NCBI GenBank assembly: GCA_030248295.1
Contig: JASANH010000115.1
Coordinates: forward strand, 62,001-126,000
Direction of reading: 5' to 3'
Source of the DNA: Mesodorylaimus sp. YZB2_4
Lineage: Eukaryota; Nematoda; Enoplea; Dorylaimida; Dorylaimidae
DNA: 64,000 nucleotides
Positions 2,738-41,780 of this stretch are shown piece by piece; within the stretch, counting starts at the first letter, position 1; every line of letters starts with the position of its first letter. A program made the translations under genes and the position numbers. Below the pieces are notes generated by a model. That model saw only the letters and a list, made by a program, of their open reading frames with translations, had not been told where the DNA came from and made no database searches.

Positions 2738-3340
2738 CGTTGCTGCCTTTGAAACGCAGATAAACCAAGGAGTTGGACCTATAAATCAGAAGGAGACGCT
2801 TCCTATACCGCATAATCCAGCGGGTCCCGACGCCCCCCCCCCAAAAAAAAAAAAAAACAAAAAAAAAAACAAAAAAAAAACAAAAAACCACCGATAAACT
2901 AATCAAGCTGCACATAAAAAAAAGAAGCATCAGTACACACGCTGAACCCACGTGTTTCGTACTTCCCGCATCGTGCAGACAACTAACAGCTGACCACTTG
3001 GGTAAATTTAAGTTTCAGCTTAAGCGTAACCACCGATATCTGCACCTTTTCATAAAGAAAACCGAAAGCCGAACTATTTCTTGTTTTTCGATTTGATATT
3101 GCGAATATAATTTTCACTTCATTCGATGGTTTCGTTTTTCTGAATTTTCTGCCCGACCAGAAACTATATTTTACCTAACGAGAAGAACAACTGGCAGAAA
3201 ATTCTCGGGATCATTCGATATTGAGTTGGAATTTGTACTTTCGCTTTCGAAAAGAATAACGTAAACTTGCTTTTACGTAATTGCTAATAACACTAACAAA
3301 CGTCATTTGTTCATATTTTTGCTAGTTCCGCCTTTTTTTT
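2738..3340. promoter_or_regulatory. Divergent promoter region between SUOX and TBC1D20
   Basis: Only 603 bp separate the two start codons, so both promoters must lie here or overlap. A C-run followed by an A-rich tract with scattered C bases lies at about 2831-2890. One copy of the dispersed aaactatattttac motif sits near 3165. I see no clear TATA box. Confidence 0.6.
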
Positions 3341-4789: not shown

Positions 4790-7700
4790 CTAATCATCAT
4801 CGCCTTTATAAGCGACTTTCGTTTCAACTGTATGCAATCCAGTGGAGACTGAGCGCAAATTCACTTGACGAGCATTGGCTATGGCGAAGGATGGCGATTC
4901 ACCCCATCCTTCGGGTTGGCACACGTCGTCGTCGACGTACATGAGAATGTCAAATGTGCCTGAAATTTGAAAACTTAAAAGGAAAGAAAAAATACACAAG
5001 ATAGTTTACAGTTGTTTTCCAAAAGAGGCAGGAATGTAACTGAGGCTGTTATTTGACGAATCACGTCGGCAATTTCCTGACGAATTTTCTTTTCCGATTT
5101 TGATGACGTTGAGGTTCTAAAAAATGAGTAAACTTCAAAGTTGAGGAAGCGAACTCAATGCTTTCTTACATTTACGATAGACAAACAAGTGCACGTTTCA
5201 TTGTTATCGATTGACGGGTATCATGGAGTGATTTTTGATATCAACTTATAATTTATCGATGCATATTGACTCGGAGTGATTCTTCACTTTGATACTGATA
5301 AATTCATATTTGTGTCATCATATGCTGAGCTTGATGCGAACTCAATCCTTTCTCGAATGATAGACAAAGAAGACCACGCGTCATCAGTATCGATTGACAG
5401 GTATCGTCATGAAGATCGGATATCGACTTATAATCGATCAATCGATGCATTCGATCTGGAATGATTTCCCACTATGATATCAATCAATCGATTCATGTGT
5501 CGTCTTATGCTTCGCTTGATGCGCCTGCAGATCATGATGATCGCCCTCTAATCGATAATTCGTGCATTCGATCTGGAATGATTTCCCACTATGATATCAA
5601 TCAATCGATTCATGCGTCGTCTTATGCTTCGCTTGATGCGCCTGCAGATCATGATGATCGCCTTCTAATCGATAATTCGTGCATTCGATCTGGGATGATT
5701 TCCCACTTTGATATCAATCAATCGATTCATGCGTCGTCTTATGCTTCGCTTGATGCGCCTACAGATCATGATGATCGCCTTCTAATCGATAATTCGTGCA
5801 TTCGATCTGGAATGATTTCCCACTTTGATATCAATCAATCGATTCATGCGTCGTCTTATGCTTCGCTTGATGCGCCTACAGATCATGGTGATCGCCTTCT
5901 AATCGATCAATCGATGCATTCGATCTGGAATGATTTCCCACTTAAATATCAATCAATCGATTCATGCGTCGTCTTATGCTTCGCTTGATGCGCCTACAGA
6001 TCATGATGATCGCCTTCTAATCGATAATTCGTGCATTCGATCTGGAATGATTTCCCACTTTAATATCAATCAATCGATTCATGCGTCGTCTTATGCTTCG
6101 CTTGATGCGCCTGCAGATCATGATGATCGCCTTCTAATCGATCATTCGTGCATTCGATCTGGAATGATTTCCCACTTTAATATCAATCAATCGATTCATG
6201 CGTCGTCTTATGCTTCGCTTGATGCGCCTGCAGATCATGATGATCGCCCTCTAATCGATAATTCGTGCATTCGATCTGGAATGATTTCCCACTTTAATAT
6301 CAATCAATCGATTCATGCGTCGTCTTATGCTTCGCTTGATGCGCCTGCAGATCATGATGATCGCCTTCTAATCGATCATTCGTGCATTCGATCTGGAATG
6401 ATTTCCCACTTTAATATCAATCAATCGATTCATGCGTCGTCTTATGCTTCGCTTGATGCGCCTGCAGATCATGATGATCGCCTTCTAATCGATCATTCGT
6501 GCATTCGATCTGGAATGATTTCCCACTTTAATATCAATCAATCGATTCATGCGTCGTCTTATGCTTCGCTTGATGCGCCTACAGATCATGATGATCGCCT
6601 TCTAATCGATCATTCGTGCATTCGATCTGGAATGATTTCCCACTTTAATATCAATCAATCGATTCATGCGTCGTCTTATGCTTCGCTTGATGCGCCTGCA
6701 GATCATGATGATCGCCTTCTAATCGATCATTCGTGCATTCGATCTGGAATGATTTCCCACTTTAATATCAATCAATCGATTCATGCGTCGTCTTATGCTT
6801 CGCTTGATGCGCCTGCAGATCATGATGATCGCCCTCTAATCGATAATTCGTGCATTCGATCTGGAATGATTTCCCACTTAAATATCAATCAATCGATTCA
6901 TGCGTCGTCTTATGCTTCGCTTGTTGCGCCTGCAGATCATGATGATCGCCTTCTAATCGATAATTCGTGCATTCGATCTGGGATGATTTCCCACTTAAAT
7001 ATCAATCAATCGATTCATGTGTCGTCTTATGCTTCGCTTGATGCGCCTGCAGATCATGATGATCGCCCTCTAATCGATAATTCGTGCATTCGATCTGGAA
7101 TGATTTCCCACTTTAATATCAATCAATCGATTCATGCGTCGTCTTATGCTTCGCTTGATGCGCCTGCAGATCATGATGATCGCCCTCTAATCGATAATTC
7201 GTGCATTCGATCTGGAATGATTTCCCACTTTAATATCAATCAATCGATTCATGCGTCGTCTTATGCTTCGCTTGATGCGCCTGCAGATCATGATGATCGC
7301 CCTCTAATCGATAATTCGTGCATTCGATCTGGAATGATTTCCCACTTAAATATCAATCAATCGATTCATGCGTCGTCTTATGCTTCGCTTGTTGCGCCTG
7401 CAGATCATGATGATCGCCTTCTAATCGATAATTCGTGCATTCGATCTGGGATGATTTCCCACTTAAATATCAATCAATCGATTCATGCGTCGTCTTATGC
7501 TTCGCTTGATGCGCCTACAGATCATGATGATCGGCTTCTAATCGATAATTCGTGCATTTGATCTGGAATGATTTCCCACTTTGATATCAATCAATCGATT
7601 CATGTGTCGTCTTATGCTTCGCTTGATGCGCCTGCAGATCATGATGATCGCCTTATAATCGATAATTCGTGCATTCGATCTGGAATGATTTCCCACTTTG

Positions 7701-10700
7701 ATATCAGTCGATTTATGCGTCGTCTTATCCTTCCCTTCATGCGCCTGCAGATCATGATGATCGCCTTCTAATCGATCAATCGATGCATTCGATCTGGAAT
7801 GATTTCCCACTTTGATGTCAATCAATCGAATTATGTGCCGTCTTATGCTTCGCTTGATGCGCCCGCAGATCATGATAATCGCAATTTCGACAGACCGATC
7901 AGTCCTGTTGTATCGATCATGTGATCTGGATCAACAGTGCTGTTCCTACTATTGATTCAATGTGCCAAGTTATCGAAAAGAATCACTCTTGCTTGCTTGC
8001 TGCTCTATTCATATTTTGATGCGTTCTAGCAGACAATTATTTTGTTGTCTGCATCAGAGCGGGAAACCAGTCAGAAGTCAGTGAAGAGGGAAGTGACAGA
8101 TTTCTTGCGATCCAATTCTAGAGTGTCGTCAGTCTAGATATTCCGAAGAAAGCATTATTGCAAATTTTTTAAGACATGTCTTCACAGATTCTGTTCCAGG
8201 AAAATTCGACCAGTGTATGACAAAATGCCAGTTGAGGCTTTCCTAACCGATTTTATCGCTGGTTGGGTGGCAGGTACAGTAAAATACTTAGCATTCTTTT
8301 TTTTCAAATCATATGTCAAAAGAAGCTTCCTAATTACACATTTTCATTCACTGTGCATCAAAAACTTGCAGTCCCGCATTTTCTTGTGTTTTAGGGGGCG
8401 CCAGTCTTTTGATTGGCCATCCCTTGGATACTGTAAAGGTAATGCGCAGATGGCTAGTTTCATCAGCTTATATCTACAAGCTTTCTTTATTTTCCAAGGT
8501 ACGATTACAAGCATTAAAGGGCTACGATGGTGTTTTCCAATGCATCAAGGAAACATTGCGCCAAGAAGCCATTGGTGGTTTCTACAAAGGCATGCTCTTT
8601 CCATTCATGTCGACTGGTTTTCTACATTCCATATATTTCGGTGGTTATGGCGGCACTTTGAAATTATTGAAAGGGTCTTCATACATCGAGGATCAGGAGC
8701 TAACCAGGCCGTTCGGTCATGTAAGCTGCTGCTTTGCGCTACAGTACAGCACTCTGACAGGACAGGGTCAACCATAAAAGCACATTCTGTGTCTACTATT
8801 GCAGCTAAAATCCATAATTTACGCGTTATTTTCCAGTCTCATGTATGCGCCACCGTTTAAGTCTGACAGGGTCAACAATCAAACCCTATCTCGGTCTTTA
8901 CATATTCTCTGGTTTTAGTTACTGCTCAGTTCAATTGTTGGTGCCTCTTTCCAGTGGATTCCTGCATGTCCTATCGAGATTGTCAAAACGAAATTGCAAA
9001 CTCAGAAAGGCAAATTTCTTTAATTCTTCTTGATCAGTTTCTAGCTATTGATAATTTCCATTTTGCAGAATCGACGAGACACGTTTGGTCGAGTTTCAAG
9101 CACAGCAACAAAGCTGATAATATCAACGTAAATGGACGTGTCATATTTTCAAGTCCTTGGGATTGTGTTCGAAAAACAGTTCATCACGAAGGAATAGGCG
9201 GCCTTTATCGTGGTGGATTAATTATGCTAATTAGGGATGTCGTTGGATTCTGTTTCTATTTACCAGTCTACGAAATCGTCAAGGTTTATTTGACACCTTT
9301 GCACAAACCTGGCAAAGATGACATCATAACAACACCATGGGGCTCGACTATTGTCGATTTTGATCGAATTGATGAAATATTTGATCCGGATTATGGTTAC
9401 CTCGGTTCTTTCCAACCAATTCAATCATATCGGCATCGTCTCGCCGCCTCTTTGATCGCTGGTGCTGTAGCTGGCGTTGCATCTTGGATGTCCATTTTAC
9501 CATTAGATGTTGTCAAATCTCGTCTTCAAGCCGATGATATTTTACAACCGAAATATAAAGGGATTTTACATTGTGCTTCTGAAAGTTATCGGAAAGAAAG
9601 TATCACCGTCTTTTTTCGTGGCTGGCAAGTTGTCTTTTTTCGAGCCATTCCAGTCAACGCATTGTTACTTTTATGCTATGATGAAACTTTGCAGTTTTTG
9701 AATAGTTATATCCGAAATTGATTTAGTCATATCGTGGTTCAAATTGCGTTGATTTCGCGTTTGGGTGCTTTCAATTATGTCTTAAATCTGAGTCTGATTC
9801 GATGCCGCCGTTGCCTTTTCTAGTTTGCTCAATATGGTCTTGTCACTCCATGACATTTTTTGTGTGTGATGATTCGTTTTAAAGTACAAACCAGCAGTTT
9901 TCGATTTCAGCACCTTGCAGGGAATGGCAATATGCATTCCCCTTGGCCTGATCATTTCATGACATTTGTCTTTGCGTGTGACTGATTCGTTTTAAAGTAC
10001 GAAACTGCAGGTTGGAGCGTTCTTCATGAACTTTAGCGCAGCGCAAGGAATACAGAGATACATTCCTCACTACTCCCTCACTAGGGCGTGCTTACCCGTC
10101 ACTGGTCATCCCATCACCGTCCTCATTGCATATATCGAACTGCCAACGTTCCAAGACTTCTTTCGTATTGACTTCCATAATCACAACGACCACCGTTCGT
10201 GCAACTTTTCCACCCAGCCAAACTGAAAACAAACCTTACAGTTGTGATCCAGGTTTGACCGAACTGGCTTGTAGCCGAACCAGGAACCAAACCAGACCAG
10301 GTGGCTTTTCTTACCAAACCAGGACCAGACCAGGATCGAAATAAACCAGCTTCTTTGATTCTAGTCGGGCTAGGCCAGATAAGTTGTGGCAAAGCTCAAC
10401 AGTTTGTTTGATCGCAGTGAAGATCAAGAGACACCCACCATAATTCCTAGTTTGTGAATGTCCTTTCACAGGAAGCTAGTTACTTGAACTAATAACTTTT
10501 TATTTGTGCACAGCCAGTCAGTGCGAAATAAGGCACGCGGGTTGGTCCTGGTTCGATCACGGCTGGGTGGTGATCGAGTGATAAATCCAGCATACCTTCT
10601 AACTGAGAAATGCACGGTTTTAAAAAATCGTTGACGCTTTTATCGTTCATGACCAGCAACGAAGTGCCATACTTTTGGATTCGTTTGAAACTCTCAGGAG

Positions 10701-11113
10701 GATATACGCCGCGTTGATAGAGAATACTATTTATGCCGTAATCTGAAACACAAACATTTTACGGTCGGTAGACAAGAATTAGACGAGGAAGACAGTTGAA
10801 TCACGATTTCGAAGAACCCAGGGAAGAAACAGGCCTTTGGGCAACCAGCAAAAAATGCGGAGCCCTTCAAAACGGTTTTTTTAATTTAACTTGCGGCAAC
10901 AGCTGCATCAAAACAGCACAAAAAATAAACCGAGAGTATCAGAAAAGTAGGAGGAGATTAGATCAGATTAAATCAAATTAATAAGTTCGAAAAAATTAAA
11001 TATTTTCACAAAAATAAGAAAGTTCCTCACTTACAAAAGAATTCTGCCACCATTTGCGCCGATCCTTTCAATGTTATCGCACTTCGCGTCACCGTATCTT
11101 GCTTGGCTGCCAT
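4790..11113 (-). CDS. MAD2: MAD2 spindle-assembly checkpoint protein (HORMA domain), five exons
   Basis: Exons on the minus strand are 11035-11113, 10596-10742, 10096-10222, 5010-5116 and 4790-4959. All are GT-AG, phases match, and the sum is 630 nt or 209 aa (human MAD2 has 205). Diagnostic stretches are ITLKGSAQMVAEFF, then INSILYQRGVYPPESFKR, then EVLERWQFDI, then IRQITASVTFLPLLE, and at the C-terminus FDILMYVDDDV and HTVETKVAYK. MAD2 binds CDC20 and inhibits the anaphase-promoting complex until chromosomes are attached. The HORMA fold covers almost the whole protein, including the C-terminal safety belt. Intron 3 (5117-10095) contains the 117-bp satellite and an entire antisense SLC25 gene. 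The start is 498 bp from the divergent CDC20 start. Confidence 0.95.
5200..7875. repeat. 117-bp satellite array (about 20 units) inside MAD2 intron 3
   Basis: Near-identical 117-bp units run from 5461 to about 7870, with two or three degenerate units at 5200-5460. The unit contains atgatttcccac, atcaatcaatcgattcatg and gatcatgatgatcgcc. Variants (tttgatatc, tttaatatc, ttaaatatc; tctaatcgataattc or tctaatcgatcattc) are interspersed. Because 117 equals 3 x 39, it reads as a 39-aa repeat over 1.6 kb. No splice signals, starts or known domains support translation, and the array lies inside an intron. Confidence 0.95.
8225..9721 (+). CDS. SLC25-family mitochondrial carrier, nested antisense in MAD2 intron 3
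   Basis: Exons are 8225-8273, 8395-8438, 8499-8720, 8919-9009 and 9069-9721, giving 352 aa. Three carrier repeats are visible, each with the PxD/E-x-x-[KR] signature: GHPLDTVKVRLQ, ACPIEIVKTKLQ and LPLDVVKSRLQ. Each is followed by glycine-rich G-x-x-x-F/L-Y/F-[KR]-G type motifs (GGFYKG, GGLYRG, TVFFRGW). It should be a six-helix inner-membrane transporter; the SLC25A45/47/48 branch is the closest type I recall, and the substrate is unknown. A long insertion (about 245-285) precedes the third repeat. Intron 4 (9010-9068) uses a GC donor (AAAG|GCAAAT) and keeps frame only that way. The gene lies wholly within an intron of the opposite-strand gene MAD2. Confidence 0.9.
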
Positions 11114-11611
11114 TTTTTCAGATTCCTATCTTTACTGACAACTTTAAAAAACCGTAACGAAAACGACATCAACCAACGCAAGCCAGCAGATCAAAACTTG
11201 CCGCCAAGCCAACAGCGCGGTGTAGATTTCAAAAATTTTACCGCACTTAAGCAGACAAGAAATAGTTTCAGGTAGAACTATGACTAAATTTTTTCGAAAG
11301 TTTTCAACGCACTTCTCGTAATACTATAATAGAATAATCAAATCAAAATAGAGAATGTCTAATTTCATTCAGTCACTCATGGGAATTATAGCAGAATTTC
11401 AATTAATGATCTGAAACTATATTTTACTCAATTTGGTCGGCTATATTTGAACGCTAGCGCAAGCGCGTGCTGTTGAGTTGGCATTTTATTTTCGATTATT
11501 CTCTTTTCTCTTCCCTCGGCGACTTCTTCAAGACATTACTAATTACTGTAGCCCTTCTCTGCATTATCCGATATTTCTGATCGTTTTTTCAAATTTCGAT
11601 AAAAAACAAAA
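11114..11611. promoter_or_regulatory. Divergent MAD2/CDC20 promoter region
   Basis: 498 bp separate the MAD2 and CDC20 start codons. Candidate cell-cycle homology region (CHR) hexamers are TTCAAA at 11228-11233 and 11588-11593 and TTCGAA at 11293-11298. An E2F-like ttgccgcc lies near 11199. One dispersed aaactatattttac motif lies near 11408. These are short motifs that can occur by chance; the divergent layout itself is certain. Confidence 0.65.
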
Positions 11612-14600
11612 ATGAAGAGCATGAACGCCACCGGCTCGTTTTGTAAAACTCCATCGGGCGATAGAAGTTTTTCCAATAACAGAGGATGCGGTCTTCCATT
11701 GGCGAATGCAAAGGCGTCCGGAAGTGTGACGAGAAATCGGAAAACGCCGGCCAAAACTCCAGGTGAGACAAAAATTTTTTCTTGTCTGCCCTTTGACCGT
11801 GAGGTGTTGGATTGTGAGAGCGGACTCATGCGCTTTGGTGTCCTACAAATGTTTGTCTTGTTTTCCCTTAAACTCAGGAGAAAAATTCAAGAAAGCACGC
11901 ATGGGGGGGGCCTCGCTAAAATAGGCATGTGCCATCCAACAGGCCGACGCCTTGATTTTTGGGTTTCGTGCCGGGTCTGCAACTAACTAGGCCTAAATAT
12001 TTAGGCGTAGCATAAATTTGGTGAACAGGTGAGAATTCTGATGATACTTTCGATTTCGGATAGGAGATTTTGCATTTTCCCTCATCAAGCACAGAAAAAG
12101 TGTGAAAGTTAAAAAAATGCGGCTTCTGTACTTCAAGTTTTTATTTTTTAGGAAAAAACACTCGTATGACTCCATCAAGAAATCCGAATGTGAGCGGCAA
12201 TAAAACACCAGGCGGTGATCGTTTCATCCCCAACAGATCTGGCAGTCAATTCGATTTGGCTCATTTCATGTTCACGTCCGCATCGGCGCCAAATTTGTCA
12301 TCAACAACAGGTGCCGATACGTCGAATTTATCGCCGAGAAGTCAAGAATTTCAACGAGTTATGCGGGAAAATTTGAATGGTGGAGTGACGGGACCCGATA
12401 CCAAAGAATCGACGGATGGAAGACGAATTTTCTCCTATCAAAATAAAGCTGCTGTGGCACCGCAAGGTATGGGGTCCATATTCAGGTCTGACCGATAAGG
12501 CAATTATCGGGCAACTGATATATCGGTCGGTGCTGGCTGGGTTTATCCTTCCCCTCCTGCAGCCTATCGTGTGTGAGTTGCTCACTCAAGTGGTGGCTCA
12601 ATCGGCGTCGGTCCCGCATTGCGTGGGCCAGCAACCCTGACTGGAAGGCCGCGGTCTGCTCTAGCTGATAACGGCAGTTTAGTAAGCCCCGTCGGCCCTT
12701 GCACACCTGGGGGACTCACCCTGCAGTACCCTCGAGTGGCTGACGCTGAACAGGTAGAGAATCAGGAAACTGTTTGCCTAACACCAGTCAGGAAGGCCCC
12801 CTTCTCGCCCAGTGCCATCCTGGGGCGCCGATGCTGGCACAGGATGCCCTGGTCTGTAGATCCTTAGTCGAGACGCGCAGAGGGAAGCTGCCGTGAGAGT
12901 TGGTCACCTTAAGGCCACGCTTATCATATCAAGGCTGGCTATAGGTAAAACGGGTTGGAAGTCCCGTGGGGAACTGGGGCGGCACCAACCCACAAAACTT
13001 GAAAACAGGCTATACTGTAGAGTCGGCAGTGTTTCTCTCACGATCAGTAATTGGGTCCTTCGAGGGCACCCATACAGGATGGCATGTCTATCAGTCCAAC
13101 TACTAGACACGTCTGCTTGGATCGTGAGTGCCTAAGCTTTACCGTTGGATGCCTGGGACTCTGGTAGCGTTCGCTCGAGATCAGGACTTGCTCAATCCCG
13201 GCCAAGATCAGGATTTTGGAAGTTTCATTTCACTTTTTTTCGCTGTAGATGAATTACAACCCATTCTGCGCAGTATTTATCATTGCATTCAAAATCAGGC
13301 AAGCAAAAAAAGCGGAGAAGCAGTCACCAATTAGCAAACCCTTCCTTCGACTACCAGCTCAATCATTCGCTAAAGTTTCCCCAGCTTCCCCTTCTGGAAC
13401 ACTCCCTTCCTCTCGTCTGCCCCTTCTTCACACATCTCCACAACATTCAATCCCAACGAACGCTAACCCACAGATCACCCTGGAGGTGAAGGCAGCGTGT
13501 TACAGTCCTAAAAGTGTACTGGTTTGGGGGTCCTGTAGTCACGAAAGCAGTAGGGCCCTATCAGCAGTAAACTGTCTGATGTCATTCTGGTCTGGTCATA
13601 GCCGAGCCCTCAGTCGACTGGGGGCTCCGCTAGGGCCCCTGTTTTGGGAAGATAAGCTGACCCCCTTCGCAGGCGAAGTCAGCGATGTTGCCTTTGGATA
13701 AAGTATGACATAACATTGCACTCTGTTACGTAGTTTTTGGGGAGCACAGACTGATCGCCTTCATTGCAGGCTACATCAATCCGAATAAAGTTCTGTACAG
13801 TCATCGGACGGGTCCAGCATCTCCGAATAAGAAGGTCACTCGGCACATTCCATCGCAACCCGACAAAGTTCTGGACGCCCCATCCTTGCTTGATGATTAT
13901 TGTAAGTATAATTTACTTTTTCCACGCCCTGACTAAATGGGTTTTGTATGATTTTCAGATTTGAATTTACTCGATTGGAGTTCCAAGAATATTTTAGCCG
14001 TGTCCTTAACGAATCAGTTGTATCTGTGGAATGCGACAACGGCCGATATCAATTTGTTGATGGAATTGGATGGTGTCGAATACGTTTCGTCCGTGTCTTG
14101 GCTCCATGATGGCAACTATTTGGCTGTTGGAACGAGTAAAGGCGATGTCCAGGTACTCAGTGTAATTTTGATTTGAGGGAGGTCTGGGATTGTTGGCATT
14201 TGTTCCAGTAAATGCCGTAAGATTAGGGCCATACATGCCGACACCCTATAATAGCCTATAATCATTATAGGCTGACCATCAAAATTTTTGAAAATTTTGA
14301 AAAAAAGGCGGGGGATTGCGCAGTCGCGGCCGAGAAAATTTTTTAAAAAAATTCACCTTCATTCTGCGCGCATAAGCAAATTTTGCGCAGTCTATTCCAG
14401 CTTTTGCCTGCTCTGGTGCGCATTAGGTATCATTCGTTGAAGGTGTTTTCGCCTCCGCTGCGCAATTGGTACTGTGTACTGGTAACGCGACGTAATCACG
14501 TGCTTCCGTAATGACTGTAGTAAAAATGAACCGCACAGGTTCGCAAATAAATTACGAACTTAGGTGTCTGCGCATCGAAGACAGCGAAATTTTGTGATTT

Positions 14601-17600
14601 TGAGCCAAAAATGGCAAAATTCAGTGATTGCGCATCAAAAACAGCGAAATTTAGTCATTTTGAGTCAAAAATGGCAAAGTTCAGAGATTGGGAGCCATCC
14701 ATAAAGGACGTCTATCCTAGGGGGGGAGGGTGGGGGTGAGCGGAAAGTGGACGGAAGTGGATGGAGGAGGGGGTAGGCTGCCGCCAAGTAAACGTCCACT
14801 TTACAAAATCGGCGGGTTATCTCGGAAAATTATCGCAATTATCATAGTATTAACGCTAGAGATACGAAAGAAATTACTAATATTTAAATCATGAAATGAA
14901 ACGACTATCCAAGGACTCAGGTCGATTATATTCCAGTTTTTCAAACATCTTTCATCCCTTTTGGCTTCTCTTTTTCTGAGGCGGATAAAACGATTTTAGT
15001 GGTGCTGCCAGTGGCTTTGTCGCTCAATCTGGTGTCTTGGTAACCACGTCCTGCAGGGGTGGGAGAGGGGGTTTGCTGGGCAAGCACTCTGAATGTGAGA
15101 GAGAGCGACTACATCTGTGGCTGAAACATCAACCACGGGCCGACCTCCCCATCCAGGGCGATGGATTCCAGGCGCTAGGGGGCCATCAGGATGTCGGGGA
15201 TGTTGCCCAATTATAGCACTGACTGATCCGACCCTCGACGTGAGTCCCGATCTCGATCTGGGTGATCCGTTAAAGAAATGAGATATTTTTATGGATAAGG
15301 TTCCCAGCAGCTTGCCCTATATTTCCTTTCCTCACTGTCACTGTCCATCAAACCACTCCAAAAACTCAGGAGCACTACCCTGCACCTAAAGCGGGATTCA
15401 ATTCTGATTTTGGAGGAAAATTGGAGAAGTTTCAAATTGGATGTAGCATGACACATTTTCAGAGAGAGCGTAAAATTTTAGTTCCCAATTTGGCTGATGC
15501 AGCAGTCGAATCAAACTGAAGACTGAATGACCCATCATTTCGGCGGATCAGTCGATGCTGGGAGCACTGCTGTTTCGAAGAGAATATTTTCCTATGGGGG
15601 GGGGGGGGGGGGTCTGCTCAAGTGGACGTCCATTTTTAGGGGGGTCCAGGCGAAACGGATGAAAGGTGGACAGGGGGACGGGGAGTCGAAGAATCGCATT
15701 TTTTGGTGGACGTCCTTAATGGATGGCCCCTTGCGCATCTAAAACAGCGAAATTTAGTGCTTTTGAGCCAAAAATGGAAAAATTCAGTGACTGCTAAATG
15801 AAAAACAGCGAAACTTGGTGATTTTGAGCCAGAAACGGCAAGATTCAGTGATAGCGCATCAAAAACAGCGAAATTTAGGGATTGCGTATTGAAGACAGCG
15901 AAATTTAGTGATTTCGAGCCAAAAGTGACAAAATTCAATGATTACGCACCAAGAACAGCAAAATTTAGGGATTGCGCACCAAAACAGCAAAATTTAGGGA
16001 TTGCGCACCAATTTTGTCAGGGGGATTGCGCAATTATAGGCTAAAGCTCAGACCGTCGGCATGTATGAGGGCCTACAGTCGCTGGCTCTCCTTTAGTACA
16101 GCAGGCGCCAAATTCTCGGAGTGGCCTCTTTCGAGCGATTTTTCTCGAAATTTTTAGCGATAACCAAAGTTAATGACAGCGACAATTTTGTAGACAAAAA
16201 TGTGCTCTATCAAGCAGATATAACGTCGAGGTTTGATTTTTTGTTTTCACATCAAATGAAAGGTTTTTGGTAAATTTTTACGATTCAGACGGGAAAAATT
16301 TGGTATAAAGTTGACAAAAACAGTAAAAGCAAAACAAAGAGAACCAGTCGATAGAGCACAGTTTTTTCTAGCGAATTGTCGTTGACATCAACTTGGTTAT
16401 CGATAAAAATTTCGGGGAAGATTAGTCGAAAGCGGCGATGGCGCAAGAATGCATTCCGACAGGCGTGTGTGCACCAGACTAGAATTAGGCCCTATAGCAC
16501 CACATGTCCGACAGGGCGCGCCATCCATACTGACTACCCATGATTGCTGGCAGCATGGTACTGTACCCACAATGCAGCTTGAGTTCATATTTACGTTCTA
16601 GCAGAACGCTGTCATTAATTAAAGATTCTAATTATGTTCGGGGCGCACACACGCCTGTCGAAATGCTTATTTCCACCTTCGCCGCTTTCGGTCAGTTTTT
16701 CTCGAAATTTTCAGCGATAGCGAGGGTTTATGTCAGCGACAATTTTGTAGAGAAGAATCTGCTCTATCGACTGGTTGTCTTTGTTCGGCTTTCGCTGCTT
16801 TTATTATGTTGATTACAAATTTTCCTATCTGGATTTCATAAATTAAGCCCCGATCTGATTGAAAAAGCACATTTTTCTCTTCAAAATTTTCGTCGACATT
16901 AACTTGGGTTATTGGTGGGCTTGGTTCACACAATCATACAAGGGGCGTGCAAGTACAGACCCCACCTCATTGAAAGTCTGTCAATGCCTGATTTATGACC
17001 GCCAATCATAGTTGGAAGGGCTGTTGTAGGAATCTGCTTTGTGCGATCAGAGGCATACTGGGGGGGGGGGCTCAGGTATAGACTCACTTACTGAAAGTCT
17101 TTCGTTGTTAGACCGCCAATCACCGATGGAAGGGGTTGCATGCAGTCCTGTAGGCATCCGCTCTGTGCGACCTGATGATAAGACTCTTATGTTTCAGCTT
17201 TGGGATGTGGAGGCGAATCGTCGTCTTCGAACAATGGCCGGCCATTCGGAACGAGTAGGCGCCTTGGCATGGAATCGTCATTTGTTGTCGAGTGGTTCTC
17301 GTTCTGGCGCCGTTTTTACGCACGATGTTCGCATTGCTCAACATTTGGTCAATCAGCCGGCTAATGCACATACGCAGGAAGTGTGCGGATTGAAATGGTC
17401 GCCCGATCATCGATATTTAGCCAGTGGTGGCAATGATAATATTATCAAGATTTGGTCGAACCACGCGTTGAACGAGGCTGCTCATACTTTCACCGATCAC
17501 ACGGCGGCTGTTAAGGTATGAATCTTTTATCTGAAACCATATTTTACGCATTTTGCAAAGTCAGGTGGTGACAGGCGAGATAAAACTGAAATTCAGCTTT

Positions 17601-19055
17601 AGAGTATGGAATTCAGCGGGAATTCTATAAGTTGAGTTGGGTGAAATATGGTTTCAGTTATGGTCTCGCATTAATAGGGTAATGGATGAATGAGTGGCCT
17701 TTGATGGTTTCAGGCTGGGTAATCTTGCTTCTTGACAGCCTGTCACAGTCAGTGGCGCTTAGCCCCTGGCCAAGGGGGGTGGGGCAAAGGAAGCAAAAAA
17801 GCAAGTTTCTTGTATTTCTTGCGTTATAAACTGCTCACCTCAACTGGGTTCATACAAGGCGCGTAAAATGATTTTTCTTGACTTTTGCAGGCTTTTTTGA
17901 ACCCTCCTTAGCCTGAGCCTTGCGATCGTACTGCATGCATACAATGTGCTGTACGGAGAGAGATGGCTTCCCGTGGGTTATAGCCCCAAGTTTTTTATCA
18001 GGGCCGCAGTCTGGCTCTGATGGTTGGTCCTCGGAATTGAACTCGGGCCGGCTCGATCCTTACCAGGAGGCGGATCTAGACCCCCCCTTCCAAGTTTCAG
18101 ATCTTGGTGGCTTGGAAGAGGTTTGAGTGATCATGAATAATCAGATGGAGTTACCTGGTCTTGGTTTCCATTTATTTTGCAGGTCATAGGATGACGCTGT
18201 CAATTGAAAATTTTTGAAGAGCATAATTAAAAACAGGGTCCATGAGTGGGAAATCTAACCTGCGTCTTTGGGATCCTGGCTCCCTCAATGCAGTAGGCTC
18301 GATTCCCTGTCGAGGTTCATGCTGTCGCTTGCGTTTCGATATAAGTTTTTGGAGTCTGCGATCAATAAAGGAGGGCGATCATATTTGTGTTGCCATTATC
18401 AGGAATCTCGAGGTTCAGGGGAATTCGGCCTGATGCTTTTTTCAGCAGCTTTAACCTGCTGATCAATCAGAAATGAGCGCGAATTCAAATTTTCATCGTG
18501 ACGACTCGTTAGCTTTTTCCAGGCGTTGGCATGGTGTCCTTGGCAACCGAGCGTTTTGGCGTCTGGTGGTGGTACGGCTGATCGTCATATACGCTTTTGG
18601 AATTGTAATAATTTCACTGCCTTGTCATCTGTGGATGCTCAGTCGCAGGTCGTATGTCATTGTGGTCACTTTTTAATGAAGTTTCTGATATTGGATCCGT
18701 CTATTTTCAGGTGTGCGCTTTGCTTTGGTCGTCGTATTATAAGGAACTGATTTCGGCCCATGGTTACCCCAGTTTCCAGCTGAGTATGTGGAAATATCCT
18801 GCGCTGACCAAGATCACTGATCTGACAGGTATGGATTGTGTTTGTCTGAGCGAGGCCGGTGACAGTGCTGGGGTTTCAGGTCATACGGCCCGTGTTCTGC
18901 ACATGGTCATGTCACCTTGCGGCGAGTACGTGGTCAGCGCTGCCGCTGATGAGACGTTGCGGATTTGGAAGTGCTTCGGCATTGATCCGGGAACAGTGAA
19001 GAAAATGTCAGAGAAGAAGACCACTGTTAGCCAGGCATTCAAGAGTATTCGTTGA
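11612..19055 (+). CDS. CDC20: CDC20 / Fizzy, APC/C activator, eight exons
   Basis: Exons are 11612-11762, 12152-12466, 13770-13901, 13959-14152, 17198-17515, 18523-18648, 18711-18828 and 18880-19055; they sum to 1530 nt or 509 aa. The protein activates the anaphase-promoting complex and is the MAD2 target. The C-box DRFIPNR is at 73-79 and a MAD2-interaction motif KVLYSHR at 162-168. LDAPSLLDDYYLNLLDWSS leads into seven WD40 repeats (about 200-490), and the C-terminus ends in the Ile-Arg tail. ASGGGTADRHIRFW and SAAADETLRIWKCF are closer to CDC20 than to CDH1. No KEN box is seen in the N-terminal region. A polyadenylation signal aataaa lies at 19131-19136. Introns 2, 4 and 5 are filled with repeats. 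Confidence 0.96.
12600..12990 (+). mobile_element. tRNA-derived SINE (family A) in CDC20 intron 2
   Basis: It shares a long body with copies at about 24590, 27045 and 50905-50630: 'ccagtgccatcctgggg', 'gacgcgcagagggaagct' and the tail 'cgggttggaagtcccgtgg'. The tRNA-like head is degenerate here. A more decayed relative lies at about 19900-20130. Confidence 0.75.
13165..13465. mobile_element. hAT-like non-autonomous element in CDC20 intron 2
   Basis: The left end tagcgttcg and right end cgaacgcta form a terminal inverted repeat. The interior (gatgaattacaaccca, gtatttatcattgcattc) matches the element at 29252-29905. Direct flanking repeats are not evident here. Confidence 0.65.
14575..16030. 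repeat. Degenerate 'aaaacagcgaaatttag' array in CDC20 intron 4, split by a transposon
   Basis: Units of about 45 bp (gcgcatcaaaaacagcgaaattt, then ttttgagccaaaaatggcaaaattcag) occur at 14575-14695 and again at 15735-16025. The gap between the two halves is filled by a separate element. Confidence 0.8.
14690..15735. mobile_element. DNA transposon-like element inserted in the array
   Basis: The left end gagccatccataaaggacgtc and right end gacgtccttaatggatggcccc are inverted repeats of each other. Subterminal G-rich stretches with 'gtggacgg' occur near both ends. No transposase frame is seen, so it is non-autonomous. Confidence 0.7.
16080..16930. mobile_element. Two related foldback elements in CDC20 intron 4
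   Basis: The motif 'cagcgacaattttgtaga' occurs at about 16178 and 16735, and its reverse complement occurs near 16370-16400 and 16880-16900 together with 'caacttggttat'. Each half therefore folds back on itself, which suggests a MITE or foldback family. No coding sequence is seen. Confidence 0.6.
17516..18522 (+). other. CDC20 intron 5, unique and low-copy sequence
   Basis: A 1.0-kb intron bounded by AAG|GTATG and TTTTCCAG. It includes one ctgaaaccatattttac motif near 17532 and its reverse complement near 17643. Nothing coding is recognised. Confidence 0.7.
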
Positions 19056-35438: not shown

Positions 35439-36880
35439 AAACACATTTGGTTTATGCAAGTGGCACTTTCATAATTTTTGTCATTTTTGAGGAACAAATT
35501 TCTAGTAACTTGCTTAGAAGCCCTTCACGCCGTCCAGTGTCAGCTGATTTGAGTCTAGTGGATTTGTGGCTTTGCATTAGCCTGGTTGTCCACGCGTGCC
35601 TTTTTCTCTTTGAGGTAATCCTAATATTAGTCATTTTTCTAATATGCCTAAATTTTTTGATAATCGTCCAAAAAGGTCCTGCCTTGATGACTTTTTGCAA
35701 CTTTTTCTGCTAATATTCTTATTGCAGCTGTATTACATACTCATTGGAAATGTATAAAATAATGCATCGATTTGGCTGTGGTTTTATATAAGCGAATGCT
35801 AAAACTATATTTTACCATTTGATCAGTTTTTCCAGAAGCATTTTTTGTAAAAGAAGACTCATAGCCCTCGAGTGCTTGGCTATGCATAAAGTATGACTTG
35901 ACAAGTCTGCCAGATTTTATTAAAGACTCGACTATTTTATCCTTTCGCGAGGAATTTGAAAGTTTTCCAACAGCTTGAAACTTTTTATTATCAACAATCC
36001 GAAACTGTATTTTACCATCAAAAATCCGAAACTGTAGTGTACCTTTAGCAACCTGGAACTGTATTTTACCATCAGCAACCCAAAAGGGTATTTAGCCATA
36101 ACCAATCTGAAACTATATTTTACCATTAGCAACCCCGCATTGTCTTTTACCATTTTTTTTTTTTTAATCATGACTCAGCGGCAAAGGTTTTTTAAATTGT
36201 AAATTACTCGAGTTCGAAAATAGTGAGATGTCATCGATTTCAGGATTCAAGTTTAAAACAGTAGGTGAGGCAAAGTGTGCTTGAGATATTTCTCTTCTGT
36301 TATGCATGATTCTATGTTACTAGACCTAAGACCCGCAGCCAAGGTGCTTACTCTTTCGTCATTGCTTAGTGTTCGTTTAACACTAAAAACTACAACGACA
36401 TCAGTGCGGTAAAATATTGTTCCAGGTGGTGGATGTGTAAAATATGGTTTCAGCTCAAAATGGTTCAAGGTTGAGGTATGGATGACTTCCTGGATGGGTT
36501 GGGTAAAATATGCTTCGAGGCTGTAGATGGGTAAAATTAGGTTCAATATGTGGGCAGGTAAAATTCAGTTTCAGTTAGGATTTGGTTAAAATTTTGGTTT
36601 TAGGTGGTAAATGGGTAAAATATGGTTTGAGGTTGGGAGACCATTGAAATATGCTGAGAATACTGCATGAGTAAAATATGGAAATATGGTTCTAACTGGC
36701 GGACTAGTAAAAGTTAGTTTCAGCCAGTGGGTACATAAACCATGGTTCAGGTCGGAGCTGGTTAAAATATCGTCAGAGATGGTGAATGGGTAAAATATAG
36801 ATATGGCTTGTGTATGGGTGAAATGTCGTTTCAGATAAGGCATGATTAAAAAAGATCGTTTCAGGTAAAGAATCTGTGAT
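35439..36880. other. Intergenic region rich in the TTTTACC dispersed motif
   Basis: Imperfect units of about 30-40 bp occur: gaaactgtattttaccatc in + orientation at 36000-36150, then gtaaaatatggtttcagg in the opposite orientation at 36410-36870. A coding interpretation is not supported on either strand. Confidence 0.6.
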
Positions 36881-37259
36881 TTGCCAAGTAAGACTTATAA
36901 TTTTATTGATTCCTGCTTAAAATTTTGAAATCGCCACTTTGGCAGCCGAAGCTCGATAAACTGCATGAATCCAGTTGTATCTGGGTTCTGTTGGCAGAAG
37001 AACAACTGCGCTGGACATATCTTTCTTTCATTTTGCAGGATTCCAGACAAGCCAACAAGTGTCGAGCGCGTATCTTTTCTTAAATTGCTCTTAAAAAGGC
37101 AATGAAAGGCGGGAATGAGAGGTTTGCGGAGACTCCTCAAGAATAGCCTTCGAAAAGGCCAGAGTATCTATTAACTGCAAATATAATCCAAACAAAGCAG
37201 ATATGACGGCTGTGTGTGCAGATTCAACCAACATCCCAGATTCGCCTTACAATGAAGCC

Positions 37260-37267
37260 TATAAAAG
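37260..37267 (+). promoter_or_regulatory. TATA box of the cysteine-rich peptide gene
   Basis: TATAAAAG lies 55 bp upstream of the ATG at 37322. The opposite arm has a corresponding but weaker tataaga before its degenerate copy. Confidence 0.6.
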
Positions 37268-37321
37268 GCGCAGCCATTCAGCGTTCAAATCAGTTTTGTT
37301 GAGTGACCCGCTATCAACGAC

Positions 37322-37634
37322 ATGAAAATGAAAATTTCTGCTGTACTTTTATTTTTCTTGGTGACGATGGCTTTCGCTGAAGGCCGTAACGATCGGAAAC
37401 GTGCAATTAGCAGTCTCATCAGAATTATGGCTTTTGCAGCTTGGAATCTGAACTTGTCTCTTTTTCAGCCACTTCCTATGTAGCAGCTGCAGCAGTTGCT
37501 ACACTGTGTGTAAGAATAATGGTGGCTACATGACTGGCTGCGCACAGGCTGCAGGTGGCAAAATGGCGTGTCAATGTTCAACACCAGCAACCTTCCAAAC
37601 CCAACCAGATGGCACGATGGGCTGCGCTGGGTGA
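37322..37634 (+). CDS. Small cysteine-rich secreted peptide (possible CS-alpha-beta scaffold), uncertain splicing
   Basis: The first frame begins with a clear signal peptide (ISAVLLFFLVTMAFA), then a charged segment GRNDRKRA. After ctttttcag a second frame holds six clustered cysteines spaced C-x2-C-x3-C-x9-C-x9-C-x1-C, then two further segments to a TGA at 37632-37634. The C-x3-C ... C-x-C arrangement is that of defensin-like CS-alpha-beta peptides. I cannot join the exons in frame: every GT in exon 1 after the signal peptide gives phase 1, whereas the cysteine frame needs phase 2. The site equivalent to the donor in the other copy reads GC. It may be a non-canonical intron, a sequencing slip or a decaying gene. 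Function is unknown. Confidence 0.5.
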
Positions 37635-39267
37635 ATGTTGCTATGGTTTCAGGTTATTTCAAGTCGCCAATTTGTTGTTACGCATTTGGTGATGTGATGT
37701 GGTAAAATCAGGAAAGGTCGATAAAATTGAATATTCTTAATCAGAAAGTAGCAACAAGCAGTTGATGAAACTCCCAAAGAAATGCCTTGGAATCGGACTT
37801 TTGTCCATATTTTGCACTCCAATAGACTTTTTCATGCAGCTAGTCAGCAGGTCGAAAGCTCGGTTTATTTTACAGAAATCAGACCTTCCAAAACCACCTT
37901 TCATTGCAACACAACACTAACTTCATCACAACTGAACTAGCTTGCTGCGTGCGCTAATTTAAAATACCTACCAATACAAATTTTGTCTGGCCTGGCTGAT
38001 AAGAGGTCAGCCATTTGCAACGATTGCCGCTTGGAGTTGTAAGTGGGTAAAACATCGTTTCAGATGGTGAATCGGAATGGTGAAATATGCTGCAGTCGAT
38101 TGGATGCCGCACCGCGACCATAGTAGATCATCTGTTTTAACAAAACACCGGGTGAATGAAAGCCTACAACCTACTGGCGGCCCCTGGAAACCTCACACTG
38201 CTTGCACGTTTCAGGATGACCCATTGCTCAGGTACGCTTTTCCCACTGCAGCAGGAATCGAGACGCCTATGACCTCTCTTGTGGCACTGAGTATTCTGAG
38301 GAATGTCCACAAAGCCTTCTTTGATTTCGATTTTCCAGTATGACATACCACGAGTCGCGACCATTTTGTCTGGAACTCTGGTAGGAGGTCTTCTGTTTGG
38401 ACTGATGGACGCTCGGCGTAATGGATGGGTAAAATATGGTTTCAGGTAATGGATAGAGGAGTGCTGTAGTCGATCGCATGCCGCCCCTTGACCACAGTAG
38501 ATGCTTTATGCATAGCGAAGCTCCAGCGCACTCGAGGGGCACATAGATTGACAATCAATCACAGCAGAGAGGTCATTGGCGTCTCGATTCCTGCTACAGT
38601 TGGAAAAGCGTACCCTGGAAAGCAATGGGTCACTCTGTGTAAAGTGAAGTCATCCTGAAACGTAGAAGCAATGTGAGGTTTCCAGGGGCCGCTAATAGGT
38701 TGTAGGCTTTTATTCACCCTGTGTTGTGTTAAAAGAGATGATCTACTATGGTCAAGGTTCGGCATGCAATCGATATTTCCCTTCCCACAATCTTAAACCA
38801 TATTTTATCCATCTATTGCACTAAGCTCCAAATAGCAGACCTCCCAGCAGCCAGCCAGGCCAGACAAAATTTGTATCAGTATTTCATACAGCACAACACA
38901 ACAAACTAGTCCATAGTTCAGTTACTAGTGATGCAGTGAGTTGCAAGTAAAGGTGACTCCAGAACATGGTGTGAAAAAACCAAGCTGTTATTTGCCCAGC
39001 TGTATGCAAAAGTCTATTGGAGTAAAAAATATGAGCGATAGTCCAAATTTCCAAGACATTTTGTTGTGGACTTTATCAAATACTTGTTGCTGATTGTTTC
39101 GAACTAAAATATTCAAGTTTATTGACCTGTTTTTTTACCACATCACCAAAGGCTCAACAGCCAATTGGAGAGTTGGAATATCCTTAGAGCATTGCAAATG
39201 AATTTCCACTGCCACACTCATTTTGTTTTTGTCCAAATCACCCAGTGCAAGACTTGGTTTTGCAATT

Positions 39268-39518
39268 TTATGAATATGCGCATTTAGCCTTTCCGCAGCC
39301 AGCCATCTTAGTGCCATTTTTCTGGCACTGACGATGAGCCATGCAAGTTTTGCACTTGTCCACAATGATTTTCACTGAAAAAGACAGATTTTTATTTGAG
39401 TATGAAAGGCTGAAACGGTAATGAGATTACTGATTTGATGTTTCCGATTGTTGTGGACTTCAGCGAAAACCACCGTCACCAGGAAAAATAGAAATACAGC
39501 GGGAAGTTTTATTTTTAT
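39268..39518 (-). pseudogene. Inverted copy of the cysteine-rich peptide gene, start codons lost
   Basis: The signal-peptide exon is well preserved (PAVFLFFLVTVVFAE), but both start codons of the other copy read ATA here (39516-39518 and 39510-39512). A donor A|GTAATC and acceptor tttttcag join in phase to a cysteine-bearing exon (C-x2-C-x5-C-x9-C-x3-C). That exon stops early at 39268, before the equivalent of the final C-x-C. It is probably inactive. Confidence 0.65.
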
Positions 39519-40149
39519 CTTGCTGATATGGTCGCTCAATAAAACTGATTTGGCGTAGGATGCCTGTGTCTTATACAAGCCTCACCATCAAGCAGAATCT
39601 TGGATGTTTTTTTGAACCTGAACACACAAGCATCTCATCTGATTTCCCTGGAATAGATGCTCTGTGCCTTACAAAGGCTATTCTTGTAGAGCCTGCCCAA
39701 TGGTCTGATCCCACCCTCTTTCGTTACCTTTTACACGGTTTTAGAAAAGATGGGCACTAGACATTTTTGTAAATCTTGGCGGGTGTGTAACCAGCATTAC
39801 TAGCAGTGGGGAGATGGATAGTCTCCCTTGGCTGGCAAACGTCACCCATTCGGCTTGATGTTTCAGCGACAGGTATAAGTACTGTAGTTGTGAGATTCGC
39901 CTTCCTACAGTCGAAGTTTTCTGATCCAGAGACTTTGGTCACTCCCCCCCGCCTGGGTGCGCCGCTCTGAAATCCTGTAAATTGAAAGAAAGATATCTCA
40001 AGCACAAGTGCTCTTTCATCAATAAAAACCGGCTACAACTGGATTGATGAAGCTCATCGAGCTTCATCTGCCAAAGTGGCTGTTTCAAAATTATTCTGAA
40101 ATTAATAAAATTATAAGTCTTACTTGGCAAGTCAAACATCCCTGCCTAA

Positions 40150-41780
40150 ATTTTTACCGATTCACTACCAGAAAAACCATATTTTACACATTCACAGCAT
40201 CGAACTGCTTTTTAATCACTCTCTAAGCATATTTTACTGGCTTTTACCCTGACCCTTAGTTGGTCTAACTCTTTGGTCCGAAGACCCAATGTATCTTATA
40301 ACACTGGGCAAAATGGTTTTATCTGCATATCTCGACAACCGGCCATCGTGATGCAAAATCGTTTTGTATGATTATAGGTTGATAGGTAAGACATGCTAGT
40401 ACCAAAAGTTATCAAAATCTATCCGGCGGTTCTTAAATGACGGCTCAAAAACCCCAAAAAAGTGCACAAAAACAATAAGTTTATTTGAAACATGAGTCGT
40501 ACAAAAGGAAGAACTATCTTCTAGCACAGGCATCGTACAGCTGCTACTTGATGCTGCAACCAGTCGGACCAACTAAGGGTTAAACCTTTTTTACCTATCC
40601 ACCTGCTGAAATTATATTTCACCCACCCTCCACCTCAAACCGTATTTTATCCATCCACTACCACAAAATTGTATTTTACCGATTCACCATCTCCCGCCCG
40701 AAACCTTCTTTTACCCACCCACCTGCTGAAACCATTTGTATCCGCCGCCTCAAATTATATTTCAATCGTCTCCAACCGTATTCTACCAATGGACTGCGAC
40801 GTAGTTAAGCTTTTGAAACTACACCACACTCAAACACGCTTACCCATCGAACGGAAGTAATAGGGCTGGAATCGCGACCCGCCTCGAAGACGAGGGAAGC
40901 GAGCCATGACGAAATCAAAAAAAAAAGGAAGAGAACGTATGAGGCGACTTTACTGTCGAAAATCGAGAATAGGAACTGACTGGTCCAGGAAATCCTACGC
41001 CTTATATACCAGTCCTACAACACGTGGATATACGCACAAACTAGTTGTCAAACAATAGCGGTCAAAACAATCAAAGGTCGATCGGAGAAATACACGTCAA
41101 CTAGGGTTAGGCCTGTCGATAGACAAATATGCAAAACACATGTTAGAGGATTCGCGGAAACCAGTTCGCCTGATGCAGACTGGCCATCTTGATTAGGAAC
41201 GTTGTCGCAGGACAACCTCGAACTATATTTTAAACATTCCCTATTTCTAACCATATTTTAACCGGCTCCTGCCTCAAGCCATGTTTTACAAACCCAGTCG
41301 CTGAAACCGTCTTTTACTTTGCTCACGTATCACCCAAACCATGGTACCCATCCACAATCTCAAAACTGTATTCTACCCAAAACCATCCTTGACCATTTTC
41401 TCCGATTTATAATTGAAACTATATTTTATCCACCCGCCCATCCACCACCTCAAAGCCGTATCTTACTTATCCACAATCTCAAACCATATTTCAAAGGTCT
41501 CCGACCTCAAATCATATTTTACCCATCCATTACCTCGAACCATATTTTACTCATCCGCCCCTCAAACCATGTCAAATGTTTTCAATCTCGAACCATATTT
41601 CACCCATACACCATCTCAAAACCGTATTCTGGCCAGTTTTATCCTTAAATATATTTTTACCGAATTCTAGGTCAAACTATATTTTACTTACGCTTTTTTT
41701 AGCATCTCAATGCCGTGTTTTACTCATCTACGATCTCGAACCATATTTGTAAGGTCTCCCTGCTGAAACCATATTTTACC
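40150..41780. repeat. Field of degenerate 'caaaccatattttacccatcca' units
   Basis: Dozens of imperfect units of about 35 bp (aaccatattttac, aactatattttatcc, ccgtattctacc), separated by ccatccaccacctc-type linkers, run in one orientation, opposite to 36410-36870. The stretch 40860-41220 lacks the motif and shows nothing coding. Confidence 0.8.

Follow-up and report, generated by a model that had tools for sequence, protein, structure and literature searches.

The genes for two spindle-checkpoint proteins that bind each other, MAD2 and CDC20, lie head to head with 498 bp between their start codons in the stretch of nematode DNA analysed here. This window is 64,000 nucleotides long and comes from Mesodorylaimus sp. 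YZB2_4 (contig C159, positions 62001-126000; the contig measures 254,752 bp and the genome 145 Mb in 1,067 contigs). The arrangement is probably a real but ordinary divergent pair, whose adjacency reflects chance or a lineage-specific event and not a mechanism for setting the ratio of MAD2 to CDC20. A preliminary description of this DNA had proposed that one shared promoter may keep inhibitor and target in balance; the observation behind that proposal is confirmed, while the balancing interpretation is weakened by the evidence presented below.

Spliced models of the window gave a MAD2 product of 209 amino acids plus stop, encoded by five minus-strand exons, and a CDC20 product of 509 amino acids plus stop, encoded by eight plus-strand exons spanning 11612-19055, with GT-AG borders at the introns of both genes (see table). 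MAD2 borders were chosen by eye among GT-AG sites using an open frame and the match to human MAD2 as criteria. For CDC20, 24 splice combinations are open. They vary by a few codons, only in which donor is used for exons 4 to 7, and similarity to human CDC20 decided between them. That MAD2 might be an incomplete gene was ruled out when its exon 3, which is hard to spot by eye, was located. Upstream in-frame stops lie near each ATG (TAA at 11600 for CDC20, TAG at 11128 for MAD2), and additional 5' coding exons could still exist for either gene. The preliminary description had rightly called both genes complete and divergent, with correct coordinates and a spacing of exactly 498 bp, and had rightly assigned to CDC20 the MAD2-interacting motif (MIM) KVLYSHR, which aligns with human KVLYSQK.

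The matches that identify the two proteins are far too strong to be due to chance. The window MAD2 matches human MAD2A with E = 2.9e-58 (199.6 bits, residues 11-205) and MAD2B/REV7 only weakly (28.3 bits), and the HORMA domain PF02301 spans it (E = 2.4e-24, residues 18-196, profile positions 1-209 of 209); judged by these matches, it is of the MAD2A type. It contains the RQIT stretch, which has a role in the dimer interface, and it may bind the MIM of CDC20 and of MAD1. The plus-strand protein has human CDC20 as its best match (490.5 bits, E = 4.5e-146), ahead of CDH1/FZR1 (360.1 bits, E = 1.6e-106). Its C-box-like DRFIPNR and its MIM align with human CDC20, and its C-terminus is SIR, an Ile-Arg tail; on sequence grounds the gene is CDC20, not CDH1.

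Could the adjacency be an assembly error that joined two loci? In favour of such an error, the pair is seen on one contig only. However, the window contains no N, the spacer matches the genome at a single place and is continuous on its long contig, and all remaining genome matches of either protein are at most 73% identical. We regard a misassembly as very improbable.

The genome contains a second intact MAD2 gene. Searched against its own genome, the window MAD2 protein gave eight matches, five in the window and three on contig C125, where a plus-strand gene at 209576-211009 encodes 216 residues in five exons, the first two of the same lengths as those of the window gene. The two proteins are identical at 117 of 209 positions (56%), and each is identical to a human MAD2L1 sequence at 104 of 204 (51%). 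In comparison with solved MAD2A chains, the score is 224.3 bits for the C125 protein and 199.6 for the window protein. These gene counts are lower bounds, as a HORMA profile search of the genome missed both MAD2 genes; the only gene it found was a further HORMA-domain gene at C10:1099352-1100195, presumably HORMAD-like, which was absent from the matches of the MAD2 protein. The equivalent search with CDC20 gave 15 matches, none of them on C125: eight in the window, three on C3 (44-55% identity) that by our own reading appear CDH1-like, and four weaker ones that seem to resemble other WD40 genes. By these searches, one of the two MAD2 genes found adjoins CDC20, the only CDC20 gene found. Since the second gene also supplies MAD2, one cannot take it that the ratio of MAD2 to CDC20 is set by the linked gene. 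No report of a MAD2 duplication in nematodes was found in the literature, judging by title among the best 10 of 11 papers. To checkpoint biologists, two MAD2 genes in one nematode present a more concrete question than the pair itself.

Alternatively, the linkage could be an old feature of a nematode clade, inherited by descent, with a later duplication of MAD2 to C125 and a division of labour between the copies, such as one between the checkpoints of soma and germline. In favour of this, both MAD2 genes are intact and share their five-exon plan. Among the 204 columns, 31 residues are common to both copies against human, while each copy shares 19 with human alone, a split that leans towards duplication after the separation from vertebrates. 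On the other hand, the common intron plan could equally be ancestral, and the genetics of Caenorhabditis elegans points the other way. By worm convention, a semicolon in a genotype separates genes on different chromosomes. In one C. elegans study, the double mutant of fzy-1 and mdf-2, that nematode's CDC20 and MAD2, is given with a semicolon as fzy-1(h1983); mdf-2(tm2190), and ced-3 unc-26 mdf-2 is written without one (PMC2955571), which by this convention implies that fzy-1 and mdf-2 are unlinked. An old, inherited linkage is unlikely. The same genotype fits the preliminary remark that such a linkage is not familiar from model animals. We found no report of MAD2-CDC20 linkage or of a shared promoter in a literature with few subscription papers, judging by title and start of abstract and, for one set, among the best 10 of 22 papers.

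The orientation and spacing of the pair are ordinary. A second head-to-head pair lies 8 kb to the left of MAD2/CDC20 in the same window, with 603 bp between the start codons of a cytochrome-b5-domain gene, presumably sulfite-oxidase-like, and a RabGAP-TBC gene. The C125 MAD2 likewise has a divergent neighbour, an open frame with no Pfam match whose first Met is 672 bp away. Divergent pairs are also common elsewhere: a Drosophila study counts 2,199 pairs less than 1 kb apart, or 31.6% of genes, and gives 6-55% for other eukaryotes by its own count (PMC2670823). What stands out is solely which two genes are paired. As a rough estimate from assumed numbers, some 4,000 divergent pairs in a nematode genome, each with a chance of 1e-4 to 1e-3 of joining such partners, would yield about 0.4 to 4 partner pairs per genome, so that a single example without conservation is weak evidence of selection.

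Most likely, the AT-rich 498-bp spacer would hold two back-to-back core promoters within one stretch of open chromatin. As MAD2 and CDC20 both act in mitosis, both promoters would be used in dividing cells. Its CpG observed/expected ratio is 1.49 (rank 64 of 636 among window stretches), and its best local alignment with the upstream region of the C125 MAD2 is at chance (fraction 0.52 of 300 block shuffles). The pair is plausibly co-expressed, and we found no evidence for a balancing device. A search of the genome for the canonical nematode spliced leader 1 (SL1), allowing up to three mismatches, returned no match, a zero that does not show its absence.

An alternative in line with the idea of the preliminary description is a true bidirectional promoter, maintained by selection, that co-fires MAD2 and CDC20, so that each cell would have inhibitor and target in proportionate amounts. 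Several points favour this idea and weigh against an ordinary pair. The partners are known to bind each other, and they are divergent with 498 bp between start codons. A single enhancer can drive both of two head-to-head neighbours in C. elegans (PMC12239621), and co-regulated divergent pairs in yeast show higher expression covariance and co-fire, that is, fire more synchronously (PMC4820839), which makes a functional shared promoter plausible; the checkpoint, moreover, depends on stoichiometry for its function (PMC9340482). The higher score of the C125 MAD2 is by itself no proof that it is the main checkpoint MAD2, because the percent identities of the two copies to human are equal. Finally, TTYGAA, a pattern of the cell cycle genes homology region (CHR) type, is counted five times in the spacer against 2.41 expected, an excess in the direction of co-regulation that is not significant (shuffle fraction 0.108). 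These counts come from four distinct sites, one of which is palindromic and so counted twice, in a scan of both strands for nine patterns, with 1,000 dinucleotide-preserving shuffles as background. None of the nine (CHR, E2F, CCAAT, MYB and others) was significantly enriched, TTYGAA having the lowest fraction, followed by TTTGAA (3 vs 1.36 expected, 0.132), the E2F pattern TTSSCGC (1 vs 0.24, 0.215), GCGCR (3 vs 1.69, 0.252) and YAACNG (2 vs 1.13, 0.306), with no occurrence of CCAAT, TTSGCGC, TATAWAW or GAGAG. The scan neither shows nor excludes a shared cell-cycle element in the spacer.

CDC20 protein is unstable and turns over rapidly in mitosis, and given this, equal transcription would not fix a protein ratio. 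Further against the bidirectional promoter, the MAD2 that scores higher against human MAD2A lies on a contig with no CDC20 match, the motif excess is not significant, and an unrelated divergent pair with similar spacing (603 bp) occurs in the same window. In fission yeast, the low noise of checkpoint proteins has been attributed to mRNA and protein half-lives (PMC9340482). Given the second MAD2, this half-life account and the instability of CDC20, it is doubtful that the spacer promoter holds the two proteins in balance, and a promoter selected for that purpose seems rather unlikely. Less probable again is a variant in which MAD2 and CDC20 came under one divergent promoter region in one lineage and the second MAD2 was freed for another role; if true, it would provide a natural test of whether transcriptional coupling tunes checkpoint strength. 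Similarly, were the pair conserved and co-regulated, it would offer a natural experiment on the MAD2:CDC20 ratio and spindle-checkpoint strength. At present, what is well documented is that two checkpoint genes are neighbours in a nematode with two MAD2 genes.

The coordinates of both genes, their spacer and neighbouring features are collected in the table. MAD2 intron 3 is long (4,979 bp) and contains a minisatellite and, on the opposite strand, a nested mitochondrial-carrier gene, whose later exons are only partly covered by our model; NCBIfam returned no match to CDC20 or to a portion of this carrier. The preliminary description mentioned neither of these intron features, nor the second MAD2, which lay outside the DNA it was based on.

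Table. Features of the MAD2/CDC20 region, in window positions
Feature	Position	Strand	Basis and remarks
Spacer between start codons, 498 bp	11114..11611		GC 0.35; single genome match (itself)
MAD2 exon 1, start codon 11113-11111	11035..11113	-	Spliced model; upstream in-frame stop 11128
MAD2 exon 2	10596..10742	-	Spliced model
MAD2 exon 3, contains ERWQFDI	10096..10222	-	Spliced model
MAD2 exon 4, contains IRQITASVTFLP	5010..5116	-	Spliced model
MAD2 exon 5 and stop codon	4790..4959	-	Spliced model
CDC20 exon 1, start codon	11612..11762	+	Spliced model; upstream in-frame stop 11600
CDC20 exon 2, C-box-like DRFIPNR	12152..12466	+	Spliced model and human alignment
CDC20 exon 3, MIM KVLYSHR at 13787-13807	13770..13901	+	Spliced model and human alignment
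CDC20 exon 4, WD40 region	13959..14152	+	Spliced model; donors 14146 and 14161 also open
CDC20 exon 5, WD40 region	17198..17515	+	Spliced model; donor 17509 also open
CDC20 exon 6, WD40 region	18523..18648	+	Spliced model; donor 18651 also open
CDC20 exon 7, WD40 region	18711..18828	+	Spliced model; donor 18837 also open
CDC20 exon 8, C-terminal Ile-Arg tail and stop	18880..19055	+	Spliced model
Mitochondrial-carrier (SLC25-type) gene nested in MAD2 intron 3	8225..9721	+	Pfam Mito_carr, two open stretches; first exons joined
117-bp minisatellite in MAD2 intron 3, 21 copies, 96% matches	5422..7882		Repeat detection
603-bp spacer of second head-to-head pair, cytochrome-b5 gene (-) and RabGAP-TBC gene (+)	2738..3340		Pfam; local control

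The best local alignment between the MAD2/CDC20 spacer and the 603-bp spacer scored above most shuffles (0.01), and this is how a dispersed 17-bp motif, CTGAAACYATATTTYAC, came to be noticed. It has 883 exact copies in the genome, the reversed pattern none, and an extended form, (TAT)CTGAAACYATATTTYAC(NCA), covers 17-23 bp. Together with TTTTAC and with up to two mismatches, it has 25 occurrences in the window, where 0.04 would be expected. The MAD2/CDC20 spacer has an exact copy at 11411-11427 and the 603-bp spacer a one-mismatch copy at 3158-3174, with further window copies at 17531-17547 and 17641-17657 and in a cluster at 35799-41779; at up to two mismatches, none was found in five of six other stretches, including the C125 MAD2 and CDH1-like loci. 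Among the matches listed, copies are concentrated on C5, C9 and C11, with few on C1-C4. They often face each other 130-160 bp apart, a frequency biased by the choice of stretches for their neighbours. An Rfam search around six copies gave a single tRNA, more than 1 kb off. We rejected the end of a miniature inverted-repeat transposable element, or any transposon, in favour of a motif, because the flanks of 54 copies are unrelated beyond a few adjoining bases. A piRNA promoter was also considered and tentatively rejected: the same 54 of the 883 exact copies show no well-defined T some 20-60 bases downstream, although this evidence is weak. Two excesses do occur in the flanks: 11 of 54 copies have YRNT 84 bases downstream (mean 3.7), and 28 of 54 have T 60 bases upstream.

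Elsewhere in the window, a Patched/sterol-sensing-domain exon lies at 50100-50549 (minus strand), and minus-strand open frames at about 44.9-57.5 kb look by eye like the same or a related Patched-type gene. In the genome at large, COX1 gave 15 matches on 12 contigs (C73, C273, C741, C47 and others), all 15 containing TGA and seven also TAA or TAG, and a COX1-like stretch reads through under the invertebrate mitochondrial code; the matches are either nuclear copies of mitochondrial DNA or mitochondrial DNA joined into nuclear contigs. A Piwi domain search gave 126 matches (exon pieces) at E of 0.001 or better, indicating a large Argonaute family. The cuticle-collagen N-domain PF01484 gave 133 matches at E <= 0.001 and none in 14 control genomes, indicating a nematode, and we take the 18S of the genome to be nematode-like as well.

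How does the pair compare with known systems? The window CDC20 resembles human CDC20/Fizzy in its C-box-like motif, MIM and WD40 region, all of which align, and in its Ile-Arg tail; it differs in having SAS aligned to the human KEN. The window MAD2 resembles human MAD2A/MAD2L1 (51% identity over 204 columns) with a full-length HORMA match, but this genome has yielded two such genes, and of these the one next to CDC20 has the lower score against human MAD2A. As in the head-to-head genes of human, Drosophila and C. elegans with start sites less than 1 kb apart, both genes are protein-coding, divergent and have start codons within 1 kb; as a difference, the distance in the window pair is that between start codons, and its products are known binding partners. 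Finally, mdf-2 and fzy-1 of C. elegans are the named MAD2 and CDC20 of another nematode, yet they are written as unlinked in double-mutant genotypes, whereas the window genes adjoin.

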